DNA from: Capsaspora owczarzaki ATCC 30864
Taxonomy: Eukaryota > Opisthokonta > Filasterea
DNA length: 64,000 bases
NCBI RefSeq assembly: GCF_000151315.2
Contig: NW_011887302.1
Span: 186,001 to 250,000 of the forward strand
Direction: 5' to 3'
Part shown: positions 30,275-64,000 of the stretch, piece after piece
How the letters are laid out: the number at the start of each line of letters is the position of its first letter
Numbering within the stretch: position 1 is the stretch's first letter
Translations under genes and position numbers: made by a program
The notes under the pieces: generated by a model
What the model saw: only the letters and a program-made list of their open reading frames with translations
Database searches by the model: none
Told to the model about the DNA's origin: nothing

Positions 30275-32461
30275 TTAAACTGCAGACCCTGCAAGGAATG
30301 AATTCCGGTCAGCAGGCGCTTTTGGAGACGACGCCGCGGCGGCAGTCGAGAAAACCGCTGGTGCTGCAGTCTGAGTTGGGGTGGGCGGCGACCGTATCTC
30401 ACCGGAGGCTGACTTGCGCATCGAACGCGTCATTTCGCCAGAAGCCGAGCGCGAGAGAGACCGTGCTCCAGTGGATTCCCCGATCGCAAGTGGGGAGCGA
30501 GGCCCGCCGTCTGTCAGGGCGCTAATCTCCTCCGTCCGCTTGTTGAACGACTTTGACTTGGCGAGCATGCTGGGTGGGGTGAGGCTGTTGGAGGACGTTG
30601 AGAAGGACGAGCGCAAAAAGCCCTTGACCGAACCGGACACGGATTTCCGCGCTTTGACGGGATCGGTGGCAAACAGCTCCACATTTTCCCGAAAGTAGTC
30701 CGACAAGGAGGCAGCCTCGCGGCCGCAGAGCTTGGCAAACTCGTGCGTGTTGAGCTGGCCTGCGACACCAATCCCAGACGCGTACAGCTCAAACATGGCC
30801 AAGGTAAAGTCGACGCGCCAGGGGATGGTGGCTGGATCTGAATGATGAGCCTTGCGCCCTCCGCCCATCGTGGATGTGCTGGCAGAGGAGCCGGTGGACG
30901 AAATGCTCGAGCTACTGCCCATCGCGCCCGTTGCCGACGCCAGGCCTGGGGCGCCGACGGTTGGCGCGCTGGCATCAAAGTAAAACTCGCCGAGGAACTT
31001 GCGGGTGACGCTCAGCTGCTGATTAACGTGGTTGACCTTTTGTTGCAAAACCTTGGCAGCTGATTTGGCCGCATCTGCGCCGCTGTACGCCTTGTGGCCA
31101 GTGAGGGTGTAAATCATGTTTTCGTGCTTGTGGGGCGCAGAGAAGATGACGGAGACGGCCTTGGCCACATCATGCACGCTGATTGGGCAAAAGCTGGAAG
31201 AGTTGAGCGGCAACGGGAAGACCTCGTTGTGCAAGTACTTGGTCCAGGCGTGCAGCGTTTCTTGGAACATTGGGCAGCGAATGATGGTGTACGGAATGCC
31301 AGACTCGGCCACACTCTTCTCCATCATCAGGAAGAGCCTGGCGAACGGAACCCACGAAGCTGGCGGTGGCCCTGTTGTTGGCAGAGTCCCTGGCGCGACG
31401 GGTTGCGGTCCCGACGATACCGGGCTGAGCGACGCAGCCAGCTGGGCAGCGGTCGCATTGTCTATCGGACCGCTAGAAGCTGCTGCTGCTGCTGCTGCTG
31501 CTGGACCAGCGCCCAACTCGGCACCAGTGACCGAGAGCAGCACAATGTGACGAATGGCAGTCTCGAGCGACTTGGCGGCGACCAGGTAGTTCAACACCTT
31601 CTCCAGCGCGTTCGGCCCTGCTGGAGGGATGATGAAGAGGTAGTCTGCGCCGCGCATGGACGTCTCTGCAGAGTCGAGCAGCGCCAAGTCCATCTCGGAG
31701 GAGCCTTCGGCAATGCCCAAGCTGGACGTGAATTGGTTGAACGACGCGCTGCGCTTGGCCCTGCGAGCCTCCATCGCCGCAACCTGCGCAGGATTCAAGT
31801 TGGAGACATCGCTTGATGCACGTCGCGGCGTTCCTGGAGACGTCGTTGAGGATCGTTGCTGGCCGGGGATGCCGAGCGAATTATTCGGCTCTTCGGCGAC
31901 ACTCCCGCCCTCTGCAAGTGATCCAGCAGCAGCGGCGGCAGCAGTAGTAGTAGTAGGTCGCGTGTGCAGCAGGCTCGAGCCCGAGCTCATTGACGTGACG
32001 GCGTCGGACGACTGGCGTCTGGGCGAGGGCGGATGACGCGGTGAGGCCAATCCACCACCACCACCACCACCACCCGGCGGATGCGGGGTCGCCAGCGCGC
32101 CTGCACGCACGTTGAATGCCTCTGGCGTCTTCATGAGCCTGCTGACGGTGGCGTATCCGACGCGGGACATGCCGCTCGTCAGGAAGACCAGCGGGCGCTT
32201 TGGCAGTGGAGACGCGCCTGCTCCTGTGCCTGCTCCTGTGCCTGCTCCTGCGCCTGATCCGCCGCCCTGTGGTGAGCTGCTGTTGGTTGCAATCGGCTGC
32301 GGGCGGATTGCTGCGAGTCTTGACTTTGTTGGGGTTGACGGCTGTTGGCTTGTGGCACTCGTCGTAGTCGTATCGGCACTCGTCGTCGTAGCAGCGGTCT
32401 CGCTCTGGCTCTGGCTCTCGCTCTCGCTCTGGCTCTCGTTCCGATCTGCGCTCGATTCCAT
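30275..32461 (-). CDS. NmrA-like / atypical short-chain dehydrogenase Rossmann protein
   Basis: Single exon, 728 residues; first ATG at 32461. A disordered N-terminus (Ser/Gln/Thr repeats and a GAGAGTGAGTGAG tract) precedes PLVFLTSGMSRVGYATVSRL (about 90-110), a degenerate nucleotide-binding motif (TSGMSRVG in place of TGxTGxxG). A disordered insert of about 130 residues follows, including poly-Gly, then GADYLFIIPPAGPNALEKVL, HIVLLSVTGAEL, ESGIPYTIIRCPMFQETLH and FCPISVHDVAKAVSVIF. These are the strand-helix steps of NmrA/HSCARG-type NAD(P)-binding proteins, which act more often as redox sensors or regulators than as enzymes. No YxxxK catalytic pair was seen. The C-terminal ~230 residues are Ser-rich with RSLSRSASGEM/RKSASGEI phosphosite-like repeats. 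Confidence 0.65.
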   Translation of the reverse strand: MESSADRNESQSESESQSQSETAATTTSADTTTTSATSQQPSTPTKSRLAAIRPQPIATNSSSPQGGGSGAGAGTGAGTGAGASPLPKRPLVFLTSGMSRVGYATVSRLMKTPEAFNVRAGALATPHPPGGGGGGGGLASPRHPPSPRRQSSDAVTSMSSGSSLLHTRPTTTTAAAAAAGSLAEGGSVAEEPNNSLGIPGQQRSSTTSPGTPRRASSDVSNLNPAQVAAMEARRAKRSASFNQFTSSLGIAEGSSEMDLALLDSAETSMRGADYLFIIPPAGPNALEKVLNYLVAAKSLETAIRHIVLLSVTGAELGAGPAAAAAAAASSGPIDNATAAQLAASLSPVSSGPQPVAPGTLPTTGPPPASWVPFARLFLMMEKSVAESGIPYTIIRCPMFQETLHAWTKYLHNEVFPLPLNSSSFCPISVHDVAKAVSVIFSAPHKHENMIYTLTGHKAYSGADAAKSAAKVLQQKVNHVNQQLSVTRKFLGEFYFDASAPTVGAPGLASATGAMGSSSSISSTGSSASTSTMGGGRKAHHSDPATIPWRVDFTLAMFELYASGIGVAGQLNTHEFAKLCGREAASLSDYFRENVELFATDPVKARKSVSGSVKGFLRSSFSTSSNSLTPPSMLAKSKSFNKRTEEISALTDGGPRSPLAIGESTGARSLSRSASGEMTRSMRKSASGEIRSPPTPTQTAAPAVFSTAAAASSPKAPADRNSFLAGSAV

Positions 32462-33295
32462 TCTTTTGCTGTTCTTCAAAAATCAAAAAGCTCTGAAAAA
32501 AAAAAACGGTAAAAAATAGAAAAAATAAAAAAAAAAGTTCAAATTTTAAAAAAAGAATTCGTGTAAAAAAAAAAAAAAAAAAAAAACAGAAAAAAAAAAA
32601 CAATGAATGAATAAAAAAATGAAATGAATGAAAAGAAAAACAAAGTTTCGTTTGTTTCATTGAAAAGTTGAGAACGAGTGAATAAAAATCTACCCCCGAC
32701 TTGCTCTGTTCGACGGATCACACAAGCTTCGAACAATTCCAACAATCTTGTTTAACAAGGGGGGGAAGGTTGCCAAAATCAGTGCAAAATCAGTGGGAAG
32801 TTGATCCTGACACACACAATCGGCTGGACCCTCGAACGACGGTAGAAAAAAAAATAAAGCGGGGAATCTTGGCGGAATTGTTGGCCACAAACGCGTGCAA
32901 GCACGAGGATTCAAGCACTACTTTAGACTTTGTGCTCAAAAGAAGAGAATAAAGGACAGCGAAAGCGATAGCGACAGCGAAGAGGAGAGCCGAGAAAAGA
33001 ACGAGGGCTTGCAGAAGCAATCAGAGAACAGCAGAAGGATTGTCCTCAACCTCAACCTTCACCGCGAAACTGTGGCGTAGAAATTGACGCAAACGAGCGG
33101 ACTAGAAGTTACAAAGAACGTTTGGTCAAAGAAGCAACCCTTTGTATGAACAGACAAGTACCAATCATCAACAAGGAAAATGTTATAAAGTTCAAACGCA
33201 AGGAATCCCTTCTACGCCGCCCAAACACTACTGCGTCACAGAACATGTTTGGGCTGGCATAAACAAAAACACGAGTATCATTTTGGTTTGCGCGT
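32462..33295. other. Spacer holding poly-A/T tracts and repeat copy A
   Basis: 834 bases between the NmrA-like gene (5' side) and the end of the Delta-like receptor kinase. 32500-32660 is an A/T-run region; 32690-32840 is dispersed repeat copy A; the remainder shows no coding potential. Confidence 0.5.
32690..32840 (+). repeat. Dispersed ~140-150-bp repeat, copy A
   Basis: Begins CTACCCCCGACTTG and ends CGGCTGGACCCTCGAACGAC. It is nearly identical to 37171-37311 in the same orientation, differing by scattered substitutions and small indels (an extra ACACACA near the right end here). Shared blocks include ATCACACAAGCTTC, AATTCCAACAATCTT and TTGCCAAAATCAGTGCAAAA. Non-coding; family unknown; no terminal inverted repeats or target-site duplications were evident. 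Confidence 0.85.
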
Positions 33296-36092
33296 TTACA
33301 CCATTGCGCCAATCTCGCGAATGGTCGTCCCATCCTGAAACCCTGCCAGCACCTTGACGAGCTGAGAAAAGCTCGGTCGGAACTCCGGTGTCATGTTCCA
33401 GCAACTCATCATCATGTTGTAGAGCTCGAGCATGCAGTGCTCCGGCTGGGGCAGTCGACCACCAGCCTCCACATGAGCCAGGGTATCCCGACCGCTCAAC
33501 TTGCCGTAAGGCATTTCTCCGTAACAGCAGCATTCCCCTGCAACCAAACACCGCGATGAGTGACATACAAGCGCTAACTTTAGCAGAACACTGCGATACT
33601 TACAGGCTGTCACACCAAAGGACCAAACATCGGACATGGACGAGAACTTTCGGAAAGTCATTGTCTCTGGCGCCATCCACTACAATACAAGTGGATTCAA
33701 CGGAATTAATACATGTATCAAACTCGCAACCCTTCCAAAGCAGCCATTGACCCACCTTCACGGGAAGTTTGCCACGCGTTTCCATGCGGTAGTAATCGTT
33801 CTCGTCGGCCAGCTCGCGAGAAAGTCCGAAATCGGCAATCTTGACCACCATACCTTGTCCCACAAGACAGTTGCGCGCGGCGAGATCGCGGTGCACAAAG
33901 TGGAGCGTGCCCAGATACTCCATCCCGAGTGCAATCTGGCGAATCGCATGGATTTGCTCGTTCTCAGACCACTTGAATGACTGTTTTTTGGACTTTTGCA
34001 GCAGGGTGCGCAAATCGCCGTACTGCACAAACTCGAGCAGAACGAGATGGGGCTCTGACTCGACCAAAGCCGCAAGAAGGCGCACGACATTCAGATGCAC
34101 AAACGGTGCCATCAGTTTCGCCTCGCTTTCAAAGTCCTTGCGGGATTTCTCGTCTGCATCAGACTTGAGCGACTTGACTGCAACCTGCACGGTTTCGGGC
34201 GCTGCAGGTCCAAGCAAGGTTCGCGCTCGTTCGGGCAAGACGCTGAACGGCACTTGACCCAGTGCCACATCGCCAAAGTTTCCGCTGGCAAGATGCTTCA
34301 CAATCGTCAACCCCTCACGAACGCGACGAGAATTGCTGCCAGCAACATAGGCGCTCGCATAATCGTATACCACCTCTTCTGGCGGGGCGGTCGGGATGGC
34401 TTGGTACAAAGGTTCTGGCTGCCTTTGGCCGGCTGTGGCGTAAGCTGATGAGCTGCCCTCCGCTCTATGAGCTCGCGTCGAATGGGGCATGGAGGAGCCT
34501 GTCAGTTCCGAAGCCTCGTGATAGATGGGATTGGCAGAGTCCGTCGGTTCTGGCGTCGGATGGGCCAGAGGAGATGTTGTCATTTCAATAGCCTCCTGAT
34601 AGACGGGGCCGGCAGAGTCCTTTACAGCGTTCTTCGGTCGCGCAGCCGAACGTCGTTGCAATCGACGGCGTCGCAGCACGATCAAGACCGCTGCAATTAT
34701 CGCAACAACGGCAACAAAAGCAACAGCAGCAGCGACGGCAGCTGCTGAAGCTGAGGCTTGGGTGTCGCTGCTGTGTTGCACAATGGAGGATGCAACGGAT
34801 GCAGCAGATGCCGATGCGGTTGATACAACAGAAGCCAACAGCACCGAGGTACCAGATACATCAGAAGCGACCGATGCTGACGCTTGTGAGGCAATGGACG
34901 CCGAAGATGCAGTAACGATGGAAGCAATGGGCACCTCGGCACTCTCGGTGGTGCTAAATGAGGTGTCACCGCTCGGAACGGGGACTGTTGGGCTGAAGTT
35001 GGTGATGGGCGTGCACGTTGGGTCTGTGCCAGCAGACCAGGATCCGGATGCTTGTGTGTTGCTGTTGCAAGCGAACGAGGAAGATCCAGCAAAGGTATAG
35101 CCAGAACTGCAAGAGAAGGAGCAGACGGAGTTCAAGGCGAAAATGTTTGTGCAGGACATTTGGCCGTACGTCGGGGCTGCCTTGGCAGTGCAGTAATTAT
35201 TGTTGACGACACAGACGCCAGGGTTGCCTGAAGACCACACCTGTGACGAGAGGCACGTCGTCGAGGCTGCCGTGCCAGCGCTCAGTGTGTAGCCAGTGTT
35301 GCAGGAGGTTGAACAAACGCCATTGATGGTGTTGGCACAGCTTCTCGTGCCACCGCCAACAGCCGTACCGGGAATGGTGCACCAGTTGGGGGTCGCGGTG
35401 CAAGGCCAGTTCGGGCCAGAGTAACCAGTGGCACAGGTGCTACAGCCACCTGTGGAGTTGCACGAGTTGCAATTGCCAGAGTTTGTCGTACAGTAGGTGT
35501 CGCACGTGCTGCCATAGTAGTCGGTGCTGCAGTTGAACTGCACGTTGATGTAGACGTTGGTGACGTACCAAAAGCCACCCAGAGTCACATCCTTTGCTGC
35601 AGCACCTGCGGTGACTGGAACGTTGTATGTAACCGCATTGTAGTCTTCATCTTGAAGCGAATCGTTCTCCATCAAATCAATGCTGAAAGTGATGGATCCC
35701 TGTGCCCGACGCCCACGAGTACAAGGTCAGACCAAAACCAGGCAAACAACCCACTCAAACTACGCAACGCTGCCCAGCTGAATCAGCGTTCGAAAAGAAA
35801 AAAAATGGGGACGTACCGTGAATGTGGGGAAATACGTTGCGGCGAAAATATAATTCCAGCGAGGCGAATTCTGGTCCGCTTTCTCGCCAAGCGAAACTTT
35901 GGCGGTGGTCGTGCCAGAACTTGTGGTGTATGCAAAAATGGATTGGATTTCAAAGTCGCAATCGTTGCCGACAGGATCGCAGTTGTTTCCATTCACTCCA
36001 TAGAATGTCAGTCTGAGCGTTCCAGGCCCGGCGCGAGCAATGCCAGCCAGTAGCACCAGCGAAATCAATGTACAGGCTACTCGCTTCAGCAT
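33296..36092 (-). CDS. Receptor tyrosine kinase with Delta-like (MNNL + DSL-like) and sushi ectodomain
   Basis: Exons 36092-35817, 35699-33756, 33679-33604 and 33537-33296 give 845 residues. Signal peptide about 1-21. Residues about 22-135 look like the MNNL domain of Notch ligands (LRLTFYGVNG, paired Cys, WNYIFAATYFPTFTGS). Residues 136-192 look like a DSL domain (FNCSTDYYGSTCDTYC, then Cys-rich, ending GYSGPNWPC). Two sushi/CCP-like modules (about 197-320) and a Ser/Ala stalk follow. TM about 405-432, then RRRR. The juxtamembrane region has tyrosines in YQEA, YHEA and YDYA contexts. The kinase (about 555-830) has a Gly loop GNFGDV, VAVKSLK, HRDLAARN (695-702), DFG (715-717), YYRMETRG and WMAPE, so it should be active. 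Ligand unknown. The kinase is closely similar to the LRR receptor at 39868-43785 and shares its intron positions. Confidence 0.88.
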
Positions 36093-39867: not shown

Positions 39868-42800
39868 ATGACAACAAAGCCAGGAACGTGCTCCATCGCT
39901 GCGATGGTGGTGCTTGTTCTGCTGGGTATTGCCATGCAGGTCACGCTGTCGCATGCCGTCAATGCTTGCGACCCGGGAGTGTGTTCATGCTCAGGGAGTA
40001 CCGTCGATTGCGCAAACAAGGCGCTCACAGCTGTTCCAAGCGCAATTCCTGCAACCACGACCGTGCTGTAAGAGAATGGCCTCGGTGACGAACGAAATCC
40101 AGTCCCCGCCAATCTCACCTTCCTTTTCCCGACACCTCCAGATGGCTGCACCAAAACCAAATCACCAGCATTGCTGCTGACTCTTTTACCGGGCTGACTG
40201 TATTGACTTCCTTGTAAGCAGGCGTTGGTATTGAAGCGAGAACGCAAAGAACTAACTCGAGTTTCCTTTGGCGCGGCAGAACTCTCACGCTGAACCAAAT
40301 CTCCACCATTTCTGCAAGTGCCTTTACCGGACTGAGCGCGCTGACATGGCTGTAAGCCGACGATTTATTTGCCAAGTCGGAACCAAGGACGAATGATGAG
40401 CTCAAACTGCCCGCGTTCGACAGAATTCTCTCCAGCAACCAAATCTCCGATGTAGAGGTCTTTCGCCAGCTTACTGCTCTGAATCGCATGTAAGCAGGCG
40501 GCTTTTTGTCGAGTCGGGGACCAGAAAATCGTGGATTTACAAGTGCCTCCGATTGATAGAGACCTGGACCGCAACAACATCACCCGCCTTTCAGCCAACG
40601 CCTTTTCCGGGCTTGGCGCGCTGACTCGCCTGTAAGCAAGTGATTTTTTGTTATGGGTGCAAGAATAGAAATGATTCAAACGGTTCTCCGAATTGGTAGC
40701 GCCCTGGGCTCCAACCAACTGACCAGCATTTCTGCTGGCACCTTTGCCGGGTTGACTGCGCTGTCGACTCTGTAAGCCGATCATTTCTGAGCCAAGATGG
40801 AGCAATGGCAATTGGCTCACCTCTCTCCTTGCACATGACAGAGATCTGAGCAATCAAAAAATCACCAGTTTGGCTCCAGAGGCTTTTGCCGGGTTGCCGG
40901 CGCTAAACTCTCTGTAAACAACCACGGTGCTACTGAAATGGAAAAATGGAACATATGGGGAGGATTCACTCAACCTGCCTACCTTTGATAGACTACTGAA
41001 CAGCAACTCTATTGTCAGCATTCCTGCAAAGGCCTTTACCGGGTTGGCCTCACTATCACAGTTGTAAGGAGGTCCGACTTTGGCCATGAAGCTACAAGAA
41101 GGATGCGCTCACTCTGTTGTCCAATGCCCAATAGACGCCTGGATCACAACCAAATCATCAACATTCCAGCGGACGCATTTGCCGAGCTGACTACGGTGTC
41201 GACCTTGTAAGCGAATCGTTCTGCTGCAGACTCTGAACCTATTTCTCACGCGGTGTGACTTGCAGGAGTTTGAATGACAATCCCATCACAACTTTGCCCC
41301 CTGGCCTGTTCAAAGGCTTGCAAAATGATCCAGACCTGTACTGGTCATCTGTGGACGGCAACAGTCCTGTCCTGGCACCCAACAACTTTACCTTTGGCGG
41401 GAATACTGCTGCTCCGCCCAGCATGTATGGCACCGCGACCGCGCCTTACAGTAAGTCTTCTTGGTTGTTTTTTTCAAGTGGCCTGTGGATTTCATTGGCA
41501 TTGAGCGGAGTCCGTTCACATTGTTTTGCCTGCAGAGTGCGATAAAGTATGTGCCACTTGCTTTGACGTCGGCTCCGGCTCGTGCTGCGGAGCCAACTGT
41601 CTACAATGCACTGTCGGCAATCGTTGCACGGTGTGCTATGACGGTTACGACATGAAGAGCGGATACTGCCTTGCATCGGCGGCCACAAACTCGTCTCTCG
41701 CCTTGATTGCCTCTGTTGCGTCCAGTGCTTCTGCCGTGTTCGCTGCCTCAGCGAGCTCCGCATCGGTCGCCTCTCGGGCTTCGGCGACTTCTGCCATCTC
41801 CGCGTCTGCTGCGTCCGTTGCCTCCACGAAATCCGCGTCGGTCGCGTCACTTGCTTCAGCAACGTCTGCCATCTCTGCCTCTGTTGCGTCTGCCTCCGCC
41901 GCCAGCGCTTCGTCGGCATGGCAGACGTCTGCTGCTTCTGTCGCCTCAAGCTCTCCGCAGGGGGATTCCGCTGCCTCGTCTCCAGTGGCGGCAATCGCTG
42001 CCGCGGTTGCTTCGGTTGTGGGCGTTGGTTTGATTGCGCTCGCCGTTTTCCTCGTCCGACGCCGTCGATCGCAACGTCCAGTCAAGGACTCTTCCGAGCC
42101 CGTCTATCACGATACGGTAGAGATGAACAATTCTCTGCTTGCCAAGTCCGCATCCAAAGACAGCGATGCGCATTATACGGTTCTGCAGGCAAACCCCATA
42201 CATCAGAATCCCGAAGGTGCTTCGTACGAGCTTCCGCAGAAAAGCCCCGAACGTGAGGGCACAGAAGGCGACAGTCATTATGCAGCACCAGTGGCGCGCC
42301 CCGAGCGTCAGAACGCGGAAGGCGCTTTGCGGTACGAAATGCCAGAAAAGTCTCCAAATCACGAAGACCTGCAAGGACCTGCGCAGTATGCCGTCCCCGA
42401 GACAAACCCTGATCGTCCAAGCTCAGCAAACACTTCAAGATATGAAATGCCCGAGCGCACAAGTCCAGAAGGCGTTTCGCGGTACGAAATGCCCGAGCGC
42501 CAGGGCACAGAAGGTGCTTCTCGGTACGAGATGCCAGAAAAGCCCCCCACCGGCGGCCAAAACAAGGAAGCCCATGTCCATTACGAAGAAATGCAGAACG
42601 CGCATGTGCGTGAGAACAAAGCCGACATTCCAAGTTATGAAGTGCCAGAAAAGTCCACGTCGGAACCTCTGTACCACGCCGTCTCGTCGACCTCCCCAGA
42701 CGACATCTACGACAATGAAAACGTCTACATGACAGGCAGCAACTCTCATCGCATTCGTGAAGGTCTGGCGATTGTCAAGCATTTGGCTAGCGGCAACTTT

Positions 42801-43785
42801 GGTGATGTGTCGTTGGGCGAAGTGCCGTTCGCCGTTCTGCCGCCACGCGCCCAAAGCCTGCTTGGATCTACATCCTCTGAAAGGGTGCAAGTTGCAGTCA
42901 AGTCTCTCAAGTCCAACGCAGACGAGAAATCCCGCAAGGACTTTGAAAGCGAGGCGAGACTCATGGCGCCGTTTGTGCATCCGAACGTTGTGCACTTGCT
43001 TGCGGCTCTCGTCGAGTCGGAGCCTCATCTCGTCCTGATTGAGTTTGTGCGATACGGAGATTTGCGATCATTGCTGGAAACATCGAAAAACAAGTCGCTT
43101 TGGTGGTCTGAGAACGAGCAGGTTCATGCCATTCGTCAGATTGCACTGGGCATGGAGTATCTTGGCACGCTCCACTTTGTGCACCGTGATCTTGCCGCAC
43201 GCAACTGCCTTGTGGGGCAAAACATGGTCGTGAAGATTGCCGACTTTGGTCTTTCTCGCGAGCTGGCGGACGAGAGCGATTACTATCGCATGCAAACGCG
43301 TGGCAAGGTTCCTGCAAAGGTGAGTCGAAGGTGTGCTGGCAGTAAATGTTTGGACGAGGTGATGCTGATTGCAGTTGCTCCTCCTAGTGGATGGCACCGG
43401 AAGCTCTCACGCAACGGAAGTTTTCTTCAATGTCTGATGTCTGGTCGTTCGGTGTGACTGCCTGTAAGTTGATGGATGTGTGGTGGCGTGCAGTAAGTGG
43501 TGTGTTGTCGCTTATTTCTGGCGACTGTTTTGCTTCTTTGTAGGGGAATGCTGTAGTTACGGCGACAAGCCATACGGCAAGATTGAAGCGCGTGATATTT
43601 TGGCTCATGTCGAAGCCGGTGGTCGACTGCCCATGCCCGAAAATTGCTCGCTTGGATTCTACCATTTGATGCTGAGCTGCTGGAACATGACACCAACTCT
43701 GCGCCCAAGCTTTTCTCAGCTCGTCGCATCGCTGGCGGCGTTCCAGGATGGCACTGCCATTCGCGACATTGGCGCTTTGCTCTGA
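39868..43785 (+). CDS. LRR receptor tyrosine kinase with a YxxP-rich cytoplasmic tail
   Basis: Thirteen exons: 39868-40067, 40142-40213, 40280-40351, 40424-40489, 40560-40631, 40700-40771, 40842-40913, 40992-41063, 41135-41206, 41266-41450, 41536-43319, 43388-43463 and 43544-43785, giving 1,018 residues. Signal peptide about 1-30, LRR N-cap (CDPGVCSCSGSTVDC), then eight LRRs each on its own exon (seven of 72 nt, one of 66 nt), a ninth LRR with C-cap, a Cys-rich module (about 320-362), a Ser/Ala stalk and TM (about 469-493). The juxtamembrane region (about 505-720) carries eight YxxP motifs (YELP, YAAP, YEMP x4, YAVP, YEVP). The kinase (about 729-1010) has GNFGDV, VAVKSLK, HRDLAARN, DFG, YYRMQTRG and WMAPE; it looks active. 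Paralogue of the Delta-like receptor kinase; ligand unknown. Confidence 0.93.
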
Positions 43786-62567: not shown

Positions 62568-64000
62568 TCAGCTCGTGTCGGCGGTAGCGTACACGACAGA
62601 GGCTGGCTCAGCATAGTTGGCATAGATCGCGCTGGGAACGGGTGTGCCGTCCGACGCGAGACCCATCATATTCGTGTACTGACTGGGCGGTTGCGCTGGC
62701 TTTTCATCGGAGGCGGTGTACTCCTGGGACGCCGTAAAGTCTATGTACTGGGCAGTCGGTGGGGCATAGTTATCGGGCGCGTCAGATGAAAACACCTGGT
62801 ACGTGATGGGCGGGTTTTGCGACAGCCGGTCGTAAATGCCGGGTGCATCCTCTGTAAAGGTCGTACGTGAGGTCTTGTTGCTAAGGTTGAGAGGGTTCAT
62901 AGTCATCATTGTGATGTCGAGGTCGGCTTTGCTTTCGGCGGCAGAGGTCGACTTTCGCCGACGCGAGAGAACAATCGCGACCAGCAACACCACGAGCAGC
63001 AGTGCTCCAAGCGCAGCCACGATGGGGACGTAGACTGTCGCGGAGGAATTCTCTTCAGGCTCGATGCAAGTGCTGTGCCCGGGTACAACGCACACGGTGC
63101 GTGACGAAGGGCACCCGGCAAGCGCGGTGCAGTTTCCGCAGGTTCGACCAAGAACAGCCGTGCACGCCGTCGCAATGTACTGTCCTTGCGGGCAGGAACT
63201 GCAGTCGACGCAAAACGAGTCCGAGCTGGTGGTGCAGTGGACGCTGGAAGTGCAGTTGGCAACCGGAGTGCAAGCCGTGCACACTCGATTGGCTGTTGGC
63301 GAGCAGTCCGCGCTTTGGTACTGTCCAGCAGTGCAAGTCGCGCAAGCAGCGCAAGTGCGGTCGACCGTGCCGCCGCAAGGAGTAGCTTGGTACTGATTCG
63401 CGCCGCAAATAGTGCAGCTGGTGCACTGGGTCAGGTCTGTCAGACCGTTGCAAGCAGCGGTTTGGTACGTTTCCGAGCCACACCCAGTACACGGAGCGCA
63501 GAGTCCTGCAAGAGTGACATAGCTGCCAGTCTGGCACAAGCCGCATTGCTGATTCGAGTTCGAGGTGCAAGTAAGGCCAGTGGTCGTGCAATTGGTGATG
63601 GAAGTGCAGCTCGCGCAGGCAGCATTGGCCGTCACAGTGCACGCCGGGCTGGCGAAAAGTCCTTGGCCGCATGTGGCGCAGGTAGAGCAGACTCTATTGG
63701 TGGTGGCGGTGCAGGTCGTTGATTCGTAGGTTGACCCGGGTGTGCAAGCGGTGCAAGCCACGCAAGCGGTCGCCGATGAGCCATCGTGGTCCCAAGTGCC
63801 AGCAGAGCACGGGGTGCAGGTCGTGCTGCCAACAGGTGCGTAATTGCCGGCGGGACAGGCGATTGAGGGCGTCGACGAATTGCTGTCGTGGTCGTATCGA
63901 CCAGCAACGACTTTAAAGTTGGCGATGGGACCATACAACCCAGACGAAGTCGCATCATTGCCAGGGCCAGCAACGAGACAGGCGGTCGCTGGATTGCTAT
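62568..64000 (-). CDS. Cys-rich single-pass receptor with Tyr-rich tail and no kinase, 5'-partial
   Basis: The frame is open from the right window edge to the stop at 62570-62568 (477 codons visible). The ectodomain is built of about eight Cys-rich units of ~40 residues (CxxC pairs, e.g. CPAGNYAPVGSTTCTPCSAG, CSTCATCGQGLF, TYQTAACNGLT) resembling TNFR-Cys/ephrin-receptor-like modules. TM segment about VPIVAALGALLLVVLLVAIV, then RRRK. The cytoplasmic tail (~125 residues) has at least nine tyrosines, among them YDRL, YQVF, YAPP, YIDF, YTNM (YxxM type), YANY, YAEP and YATA. No kinase domain follows, since the next gene starts 210 bases downstream. It may be a docking receptor phosphorylated by the neighbouring or other tyrosine kinases (inference). 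Signal peptide and N-terminus lie outside. Confidence 0.75.
   Translation of the reverse strand, partial: SNPATACLVAGPGNDATSSGLYGPIANFKVVAGRYDHDSNSSTPSIACPAGNYAPVGSTTCTPCSAGTWDHDGSSATACVACTACTPGSTYESTTCTATTNRVCSTCATCGQGLFASPACTVTANAACASCTSITNCTTTGLTCTSNSNQQCGLCQTGSYVTLAGLCAPCTGCGSETYQTAACNGLTDLTQCTSCTICGANQYQATPCGGTVDRTCAACATCTAGQYQSADCSPTANRVCTACTPVANCTSSVHCTTSSDSFCVDCSSCPQGQYIATACTAVLGRTCGNCTALAGCPSSRTVCVVPGHSTCIEPEENSSATVYVPIVAALGALLLVVLLVAIVLSRRRKSTSAAESKADLDITMMTMNPLNLSNKTSRTTFTEDAPGIYDRLSQNPPITYQVFSSDAPDNYAPPTAQYIDFTASQEYTASDEKPAQPPSQYTNMMGLASDGTPVPSAIYANYAEPASVVYATADTS

Follow-up and report, generated by a model that had tools for sequence, protein, structure and literature searches.

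A Capsaspora receptor tyrosine kinase whose C2-DSL head is probably related to the outer tip of Notch ligands

The gene on the minus strand at 36092-33296 encodes a member of a receptor tyrosine kinase family of Capsaspora owczarzaki whose outer tip, a C2-DSL head, is probably homologous to the tip of Notch ligands. All positions refer to the window, the 64,000-nucleotide stretch of DNA that was analyzed. In the spliced model, the gene has four exons and a product of 845 residues, and all three introns start with GT and end with AG. The product is probably a single-pass receptor tyrosine kinase, with a signal-like start and a hydrophobic segment recognized by eye.

Exon 1 (35817..36092, minus strand, as are all features of the gene) encodes the signal-peptide-like start (residues 1-21, by eye) and the C2-like domain through residue 92 (its first half). 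Exon 2 (33756..35699; residues 93-740) encodes the rest of the C2-like domain, the DSL-like domain, two sushi-like repeats, a Ser/Ala-rich stalk, the transmembrane segment, juxtamembrane tyrosines, and the kinase as far as KLPVK. In the spliced model, the kinase continues from WMAPE in exon 3 (33604..33679) and ends, with the stop, in exon 4 (33296..33537). The C2-like domain (residues 22-148; 35532..36029), assigned from the fold of two AF2 models and from PF00168 matches in four of 15 family heads, is interrupted by the intron at 35816-35700. The DSL-like domain (residues 149-192; 35400..35531), recognized with family profiles, begins CSTDYYGSTC and holds eight cysteines. It is followed by two sushi-like Cys repeats (residues 197-321; 35013..35387; by eye), and a close paralogue (P0003) matches PF00084 Sushi at its residues 267-326 with 28.6 bits (Pfam). 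A putative transmembrane helix (residues ~411-434; 34674..34745; by eye) precedes RRRR, and on the inner side a motif check located NPIY (residues 482-485; 34521..34532) among several juxtamembrane tyrosines. The tyrosine kinase domain (residues 557-829; 33347..34307, with two introns inside) contains HRDLAARN, DFGL, and WMAPE, and scores 286.7 bits against PF07714 in a Pfam scan. Two further minus-strand loci in the window were read by eye: the final part of a further Cys-rich protein, whose tail is of YANY/VYAT type (62571-63998), and a 735-residue open frame with low-complexity sequence around a nucleotide-binding-like core (30278-32482).

The public protein P0001 of C. owczarzaki ATCC 30864 also has 845 residues, with 100% identity across residues 22-200, the part searched. 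It is named "proto-oncogene tyrosine-protein kinase LCK"; LCK is a cytosolic kinase, and the name is therefore misleading for a protein that shows, by eye, a signal-like start, a hydrophobic segment, and a kinase behind it. The names LCK, megakaryocyte-associated kinase, ITK/TSK, and SEA have been given publicly to members of one receptor kinase family (P0001, P0004, P0010, and P0011).

The original prediction described the head as a Notch-ligand-like MNNL plus DSL module. The head strings that it quoted are present on the minus strand in the claimed order, with WNYIFAATYFPTFT|GS straddling the 117-base intron 35816-35700. Pfam profiles run on this protein alone did not recover the module: DSL reached 7.7 bits (E = 6; cut-off 24.2 bits), or 9.3 bits (E = 1.9) when the head was trimmed shorter, and MNNL gave no match at E ≤ 10. 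The protein also has no Pfam match to PF00168 C2 or to the EGF family, and has sushi-like repeats after its head. The YYG motif is present in the DSL-like domain, which has eight cysteines in all 15 heads, against the six of the definition in the available text of PMC2770060. MNNL (PF07657) was not matched in any of the 15 family heads scanned singly, nor across the whole Capsaspora genome, in a search whose controls were silent too. Failure of the single protein is nevertheless not final, since the Pfam DSL cut-off is exceeded by paralogues, the best reaching 48.4 bits for a whole head region; as judged from sequence, the relation of this head to Notch ligands is visible at the family level only.

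The same head was found at no fewer than 19 loci of the Capsaspora genome (27.46 Mb, 29 contigs) by genome searches and locus reading; the count is a lower bound because both searches score best candidates only. Among the best candidates scored, the own-genome search with residues 22-321 gave 62 matches and PF01414 gave 27, eight of them over the cut-off (one only together with its neighbors); 22 of the 27 sit in 13 of the head loci. The 15 heads that could be spliced form alignment A1, outside which stand C17_460k (stops after splicing) and C12_515k, C13_100k, and C1_1131k (first exon unresolved). At two loci, L051 (C17:459400-461900) and L036 (C12:513724-517032), the first part of the head is disrupted by frame breaks, possibly through sequencing errors or decay; the public model of the L036 member, P0004, starts late. 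DSL matches were also noticed in two other settings. L052 (C10:470700-473200) encodes a membrane protein distinct from these, whose DSL-like domain begins CTSDHYGPFCNISC (19.2 bits), with no kinase seen in the stretch. L054 (C16:350400-352900) has a weak DSL match (15.8 bits) inside EGF-like repeats, which are preceded or followed by a ligand-binding-like domain on one side and several hydrophobic segments on the other, an arrangement that by eye resembles a class C GPCR.

A kinase is carried by 11 of the 19 head loci: the gene described here (P0001); C8_812k, C8_1267k, C12_515k, C1_1985k, C11_77k, C9_463k, and C13_100k (P0002, P0003, P0004, P0006, P0008, P0010, and P0011, in that order); and apparently C5_976k, C11_1261k, and C17_460k, to judge from head and kinase matches, equal open-frame lengths, and a single strand. 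Six loci end in a tyrosine-rich tail with no kinase seen: a kinase is absent from the precomputed Pfam domains of C1_35k, C1_29k, and C1_60k (P0005, P0007, and P0009), and none was seen up to the open-frame stop, where reading ended, in C14_160k, C1_2170k, and C1_1131k. The other two loci, C8_1357k and C8_1362k, are assigned to neither class. Long members (the P0004-P0011 kind) show, by eye, the order C2, DSL, second DSL, sushi-like, EGF_CA, Calx-beta, and membrane segment, with EGF_CA and Calx-beta matched by Pfam in P0005, P0006, and P0010; the short class, to which the present gene belongs, has only sushi-like repeats after the head. Alignment A1 has 17 invariant columns, including, in the DSL-like domain, its eight cysteines and YG. 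Apart from three close paralogues, the heads are 25-32% identical to that of the present gene (17-28% in the C2 part alone); one intron place is common to nine heads, and another to six long heads. Scanned singly with Pfam, 13 of the 15 heads match DSL at E ≤ 10 (best E 0.0024), and five match EGF_STAB1-2, with a best E (0.00011) stronger than the best for DSL. Protein searches for relatives beyond Capsaspora returned only Capsaspora proteins (3, 2, and 6 of 393, 1197, and 285 candidates); given the word filter and length limits of these searches, this is weak evidence of absence.

Used as a profile against 177,635 PDB sequences, A1 gave 14 matches at E ≤ 10, of which ranks 1-6 are all Notch ligands: Jagged-2 (two constructs), Delta-like (three), and Drosophila Delta, with E from 4.7e-8 (Jagged-2) to 3.8e-5 (Delta). 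Ranks 7-13, matched in the first domain, are the perforin-1 C2 and two plant proteins known as C2 proteins, and rank 14 is a protocadherin; no laminin, stabilin, or other EGF-only protein is among the 14. HHalign aligned A1 with seven Notch ligands at 97.3% probability and a score of 75.5 over 101 columns spanning the second half of C2 and DSL, a score reached by none of 60 column-shuffled controls (maximum 23.4). The DSL part alone scored 40.6 over 40 columns (60 shuffles, maximum 16.8), against 12.8-22.7 over 7-17 columns for four EGF/sushi controls, although EGF controls share part of this signal, at 58-64% probability across 13-15 columns. The C2 part alone scored 24.4 (11.5% probability; 60 shuffles, maximum 16.0). 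With 0/60 column shuffles in each of the three tests, chance or composition is out as the source of the likeness, and in these family-level sequence comparisons a Notch-ligand likeness exceeding chance is confirmed. The second DSL of the long members scored 51.8 against the Notch-ligand DSL, and 22.9 (50% probability) when compared with the family's own first DSL. HMMER locates the signal in the same region: for Jagged-2, the full head gives 37.6 bits, and a segment joining the second half of C2 to the initial 18 columns of DSL already 34.2 bits (E 2.8e-7), whereas for any of the seven ligands DSL alone gives at most 16.9 bits and C2 alone at most 5.8 bits (E ≥ 150). The junction and DSL thus carry the relation, and C2 on its own is not selective for Notch ligands; a C2-only profile retrieved just seven PDB chains, from perforin-1 and plant proteins (E 0.16-0.42). 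In the reverse direction, four of the 15 heads fell below E 0.01 with a Notch-ligand profile, the best at 1.3e-4, and that of the present gene reached 0.07. Family profile, HHalign, and Foldseek together bear out the core of the original prediction, a two-domain, Delta/Jagged-related head of about 170 mature residues on a tyrosine kinase. Elsewhere in the genome (G000), Notch LNR repeats occur at C10:722023-722661, C1:1118363-1118617, and C1:437017-437286 (nine matches, seven over the cut-off).

The first domain is predicted to be a C2 fold on the basis of two AF2 models of modest confidence (Foldseek and VIA-align). Foldseek placed Notch-ligand chains as the first 14 of 858 and the first 20 of 869 matches, but both AF2 models are weak, with mean pLDDT of 59.5 and 68.5. 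The Notch-ligand rows have TM 0.29-0.51 and rmsd 7.7-13.2 Å across the two domains, and in VIA-align Notch ligands score level with other C2 domains. Structure alignments were built from pieces of P0001-P0011, with the public model of P0004 lacking the start of the head. The acidic positions in loops 1 and 3 of canonical C2 domains bind calcium; in the Capsaspora heads, loop 1 has an acid in 15 of 15 (14 D, 1 E), loop 3 has [DE]xD in 15 of 15, and the NPxW motif keeps its P in 15 and its W in 14 of the 15. PF00168 matches four of the 15 heads weakly (best E 0.0095 among matches at E ≤ 10), with 13.5 bits in C14_160k against a cut-off of 22. Based on the retained C2 motifs, the four PF00168 matches, and the lack of any MNNL match among the 15 heads, these heads look like C2 domains in which the hallmarks of animal MNNL have not arisen, and this would explain why the MNNL test failed. 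Of the module originally proposed, the DSL-like part stands at the family level, while the MNNL part does not, a C2 fold with canonical C2 features describing that domain better.

The Delta/Jagged likeness could also be read as convergence, in which a generic C2 precedes an EGF of MEGF/stabilin or laminin type and CxxxYYGxxC arose beside a common fold. This reading would suit the eight cysteines of the DSL-like domain, the signal shared with EGF controls, the best single score among the 15 heads falling to EGF_STAB1-2, the E = 6 for DSL in the present gene, and the lack of specificity of C2 alone for Notch ligands. We nonetheless consider it unlikely, because six Notch ligands lead the 14 PDB matches with no EGF-only protein anywhere among them, the alignment crosses the domain junction in register, and the second domain of long members, close behind the first, exceeds the DSL cut-off in several genes. 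Acquisition of the head by horizontal transfer of a piece of an animal Delta/Jagged gene might be imagined for an organism that lives in snails, in close contact with its host, and that reuses the head on many genes. However, this is scarcely credible given the divergence of the heads from that of the present gene (three close paralogues aside), their weak fit to the C2 model and lack of fit to MNNL, the retained canonical C2 motifs, and the intron places common to nine heads and to six long heads; furthermore, the Notch-ligand profile (best E 1.3e-4) puts no head especially near animal ligands. Homology of the C2-DSL head with the Notch-ligand tip remains the probable explanation, and under it the head would already have been a receptor tip in the ancestor that filastereans share with animals.

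Over ~190 residues, the kinase of the present gene is 98.4% identical to those of two close paralogues, and 45.6-53.2% identical to those of five other C2-DSL kinases (P0004, P0006, P0008, P0011, and C5_976k in L039), P0010 having been missed by the search pattern used for this comparison. A neighboring receptor kinase in the window (41505-43454, plus strand) has a kinase 83.5% identical to that of the present gene. Its upstream exons (~40000-41200) appear by eye to encode one leucine-rich repeat each, and its juxtamembrane part is Tyr-rich. These identities indicate that the same head occurs on unlike kinases, and like kinases occur with unlike heads. Five kinase-less tails contain 7-17 tyrosines each (4.7-7.3% Tyr, against 3.1-4.4% elsewhere in the same proteins), often as YDxL or YDNV. 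By position, an inner-side NPxY lies between membrane and kinase or in the tail in eight of 13 sequences (the present gene and seven of 12 others).

We propose that the C2-DSL tip, borne on a sushi or EGF/Calx-beta stalk, would bind a ligand carried by another cell, the matrix, or a lipid particle. Ligand-driven clustering would bring the kinase domains together, which could then cross-phosphorylate each other and the juxtamembrane tyrosines, NPIY among them, and partners that share the head but lack a kinase would provide docking tails for SH2/PTB proteins. Alternatively, kinase-less and kinase members may not be partners at all, with the head serving in adhesion or matrix binding and the tyrosine-rich tails in trafficking. 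Sushi, EGF, and Calx-beta domains, all present in the family, are common in adhesion proteins, and NPxY doubles as an endocytosis signal; we give this reading an appreciable, minority chance, since the repeated YDxL/YDNV-type motifs and the Tyr enrichment of the tails are what SH2 docking sites would show.

Returning to the signaling interpretation, we tentatively suggest that a pre-animal C2-DSL tip, with an acidic-loop C2, may have served phosphotyrosine receptors made up of kinase and docking chains, and that the Delta/Jagged line later lost the kinase; this scenario is possible and rather doubtful. Capsaspora aggregates on phosphatidylcholine vesicles through a receptor not yet identified, for which the authors point, in the available text, to membrane proteins with cytosolic NPxY (PMC13171883). 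The Foldseek matches include a phosphatidylcholine-bound cPLA2 C2; together with NPxY, this pointer to a phosphatidylcholine ligand is a lead only, and it is a long shot that the tip in Capsaspora still senses phosphatidylcholine particles.

The pairing of a ligand-type head with a kinase, called unusual in the original prediction, is as such not new, since DSL on a Capsaspora receptor kinase has already been reported: the available text of a 2016 review (PMC4810162, citing Suga 2013) describes a Delta-like receptor kinase in Capsaspora, in which two DSL domains accompany EGF repeats, with MNNL added later toward animals. This kinase, from the same organism and likewise with DSL on a receptor kinase, is presumably one of the long members reported here; the description, as far as available, mentions neither a C2 head nor kinase-less members nor a short class with sushi repeats. 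Within the open-licence literature accessible to us, we found no description of a C2- or MNNL-type domain ahead of DSL in Capsaspora, of the kinase-less members, or of the short sushi class. According to the available parts of these papers, MNLL and DSL were absent outside animals and their origin could not be clarified (Gazave et al., 2009), and MNNL plus DSL was later taken as strong evidence of Delta, with both found in one choanoflagellate, S. dolichothecata, DSL noted in two ichthyosporeans, and MNNL plus DSL traced to the choanoflagellate-animal ancestor (Richter et al., 2018; PMC6040629). The S. dolichothecata Delta resembles the Capsaspora proteins in combining an MNNL-type domain with DSL outside animals, and differs in coming from a choanoflagellate and in having both Pfam domains reported, with a kinase not mentioned in the available text (PMC6040629). 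A C2-DSL head in a filasterean would place the two-domain unit one branch deeper than the choanoflagellate-animal ancestor.

Judged by its domains, the product of the present gene is not a Notch ligand, given the kinase inside, the sushi-like instead of EGF repeats, and the lack of an MNNL match. Like the Notch ligands Delta, Jagged, and Serrate (C2/MNNL-DSL-EGF-TM), the Capsaspora proteins have C2 followed by a DSL-like domain without a clear linker, an alignable junction, and an apparent type I membrane layout; in the long kinase-less members the resemblance extends to EGF repeats and a tail. Unlike them, the Capsaspora head has no Pfam MNNL and has two extra cysteines in its DSL-like domain, the present gene has sushi-like repeats after DSL, and the family has a kinase or tyrosine-rich tail inside. 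These findings suggest that the Delta/Jagged-type tip predates animals and its role as a Notch ligand, and Capsaspora, a protist with published genome editing (PMC9170242, available in part), would allow the pre-Notch job of the head to be tested. Canonical C2 domains (cPLA2, perforin, and others) share with the Capsaspora domain the predicted fold, NPxW, and acidic loops 1 and 3, whereas the latter is apparently extracellular, contains cysteines, and is joined to DSL; a canonical C2 would offer a source for MNNL, with the C2-DSL unit placed on phosphotyrosine receptors.
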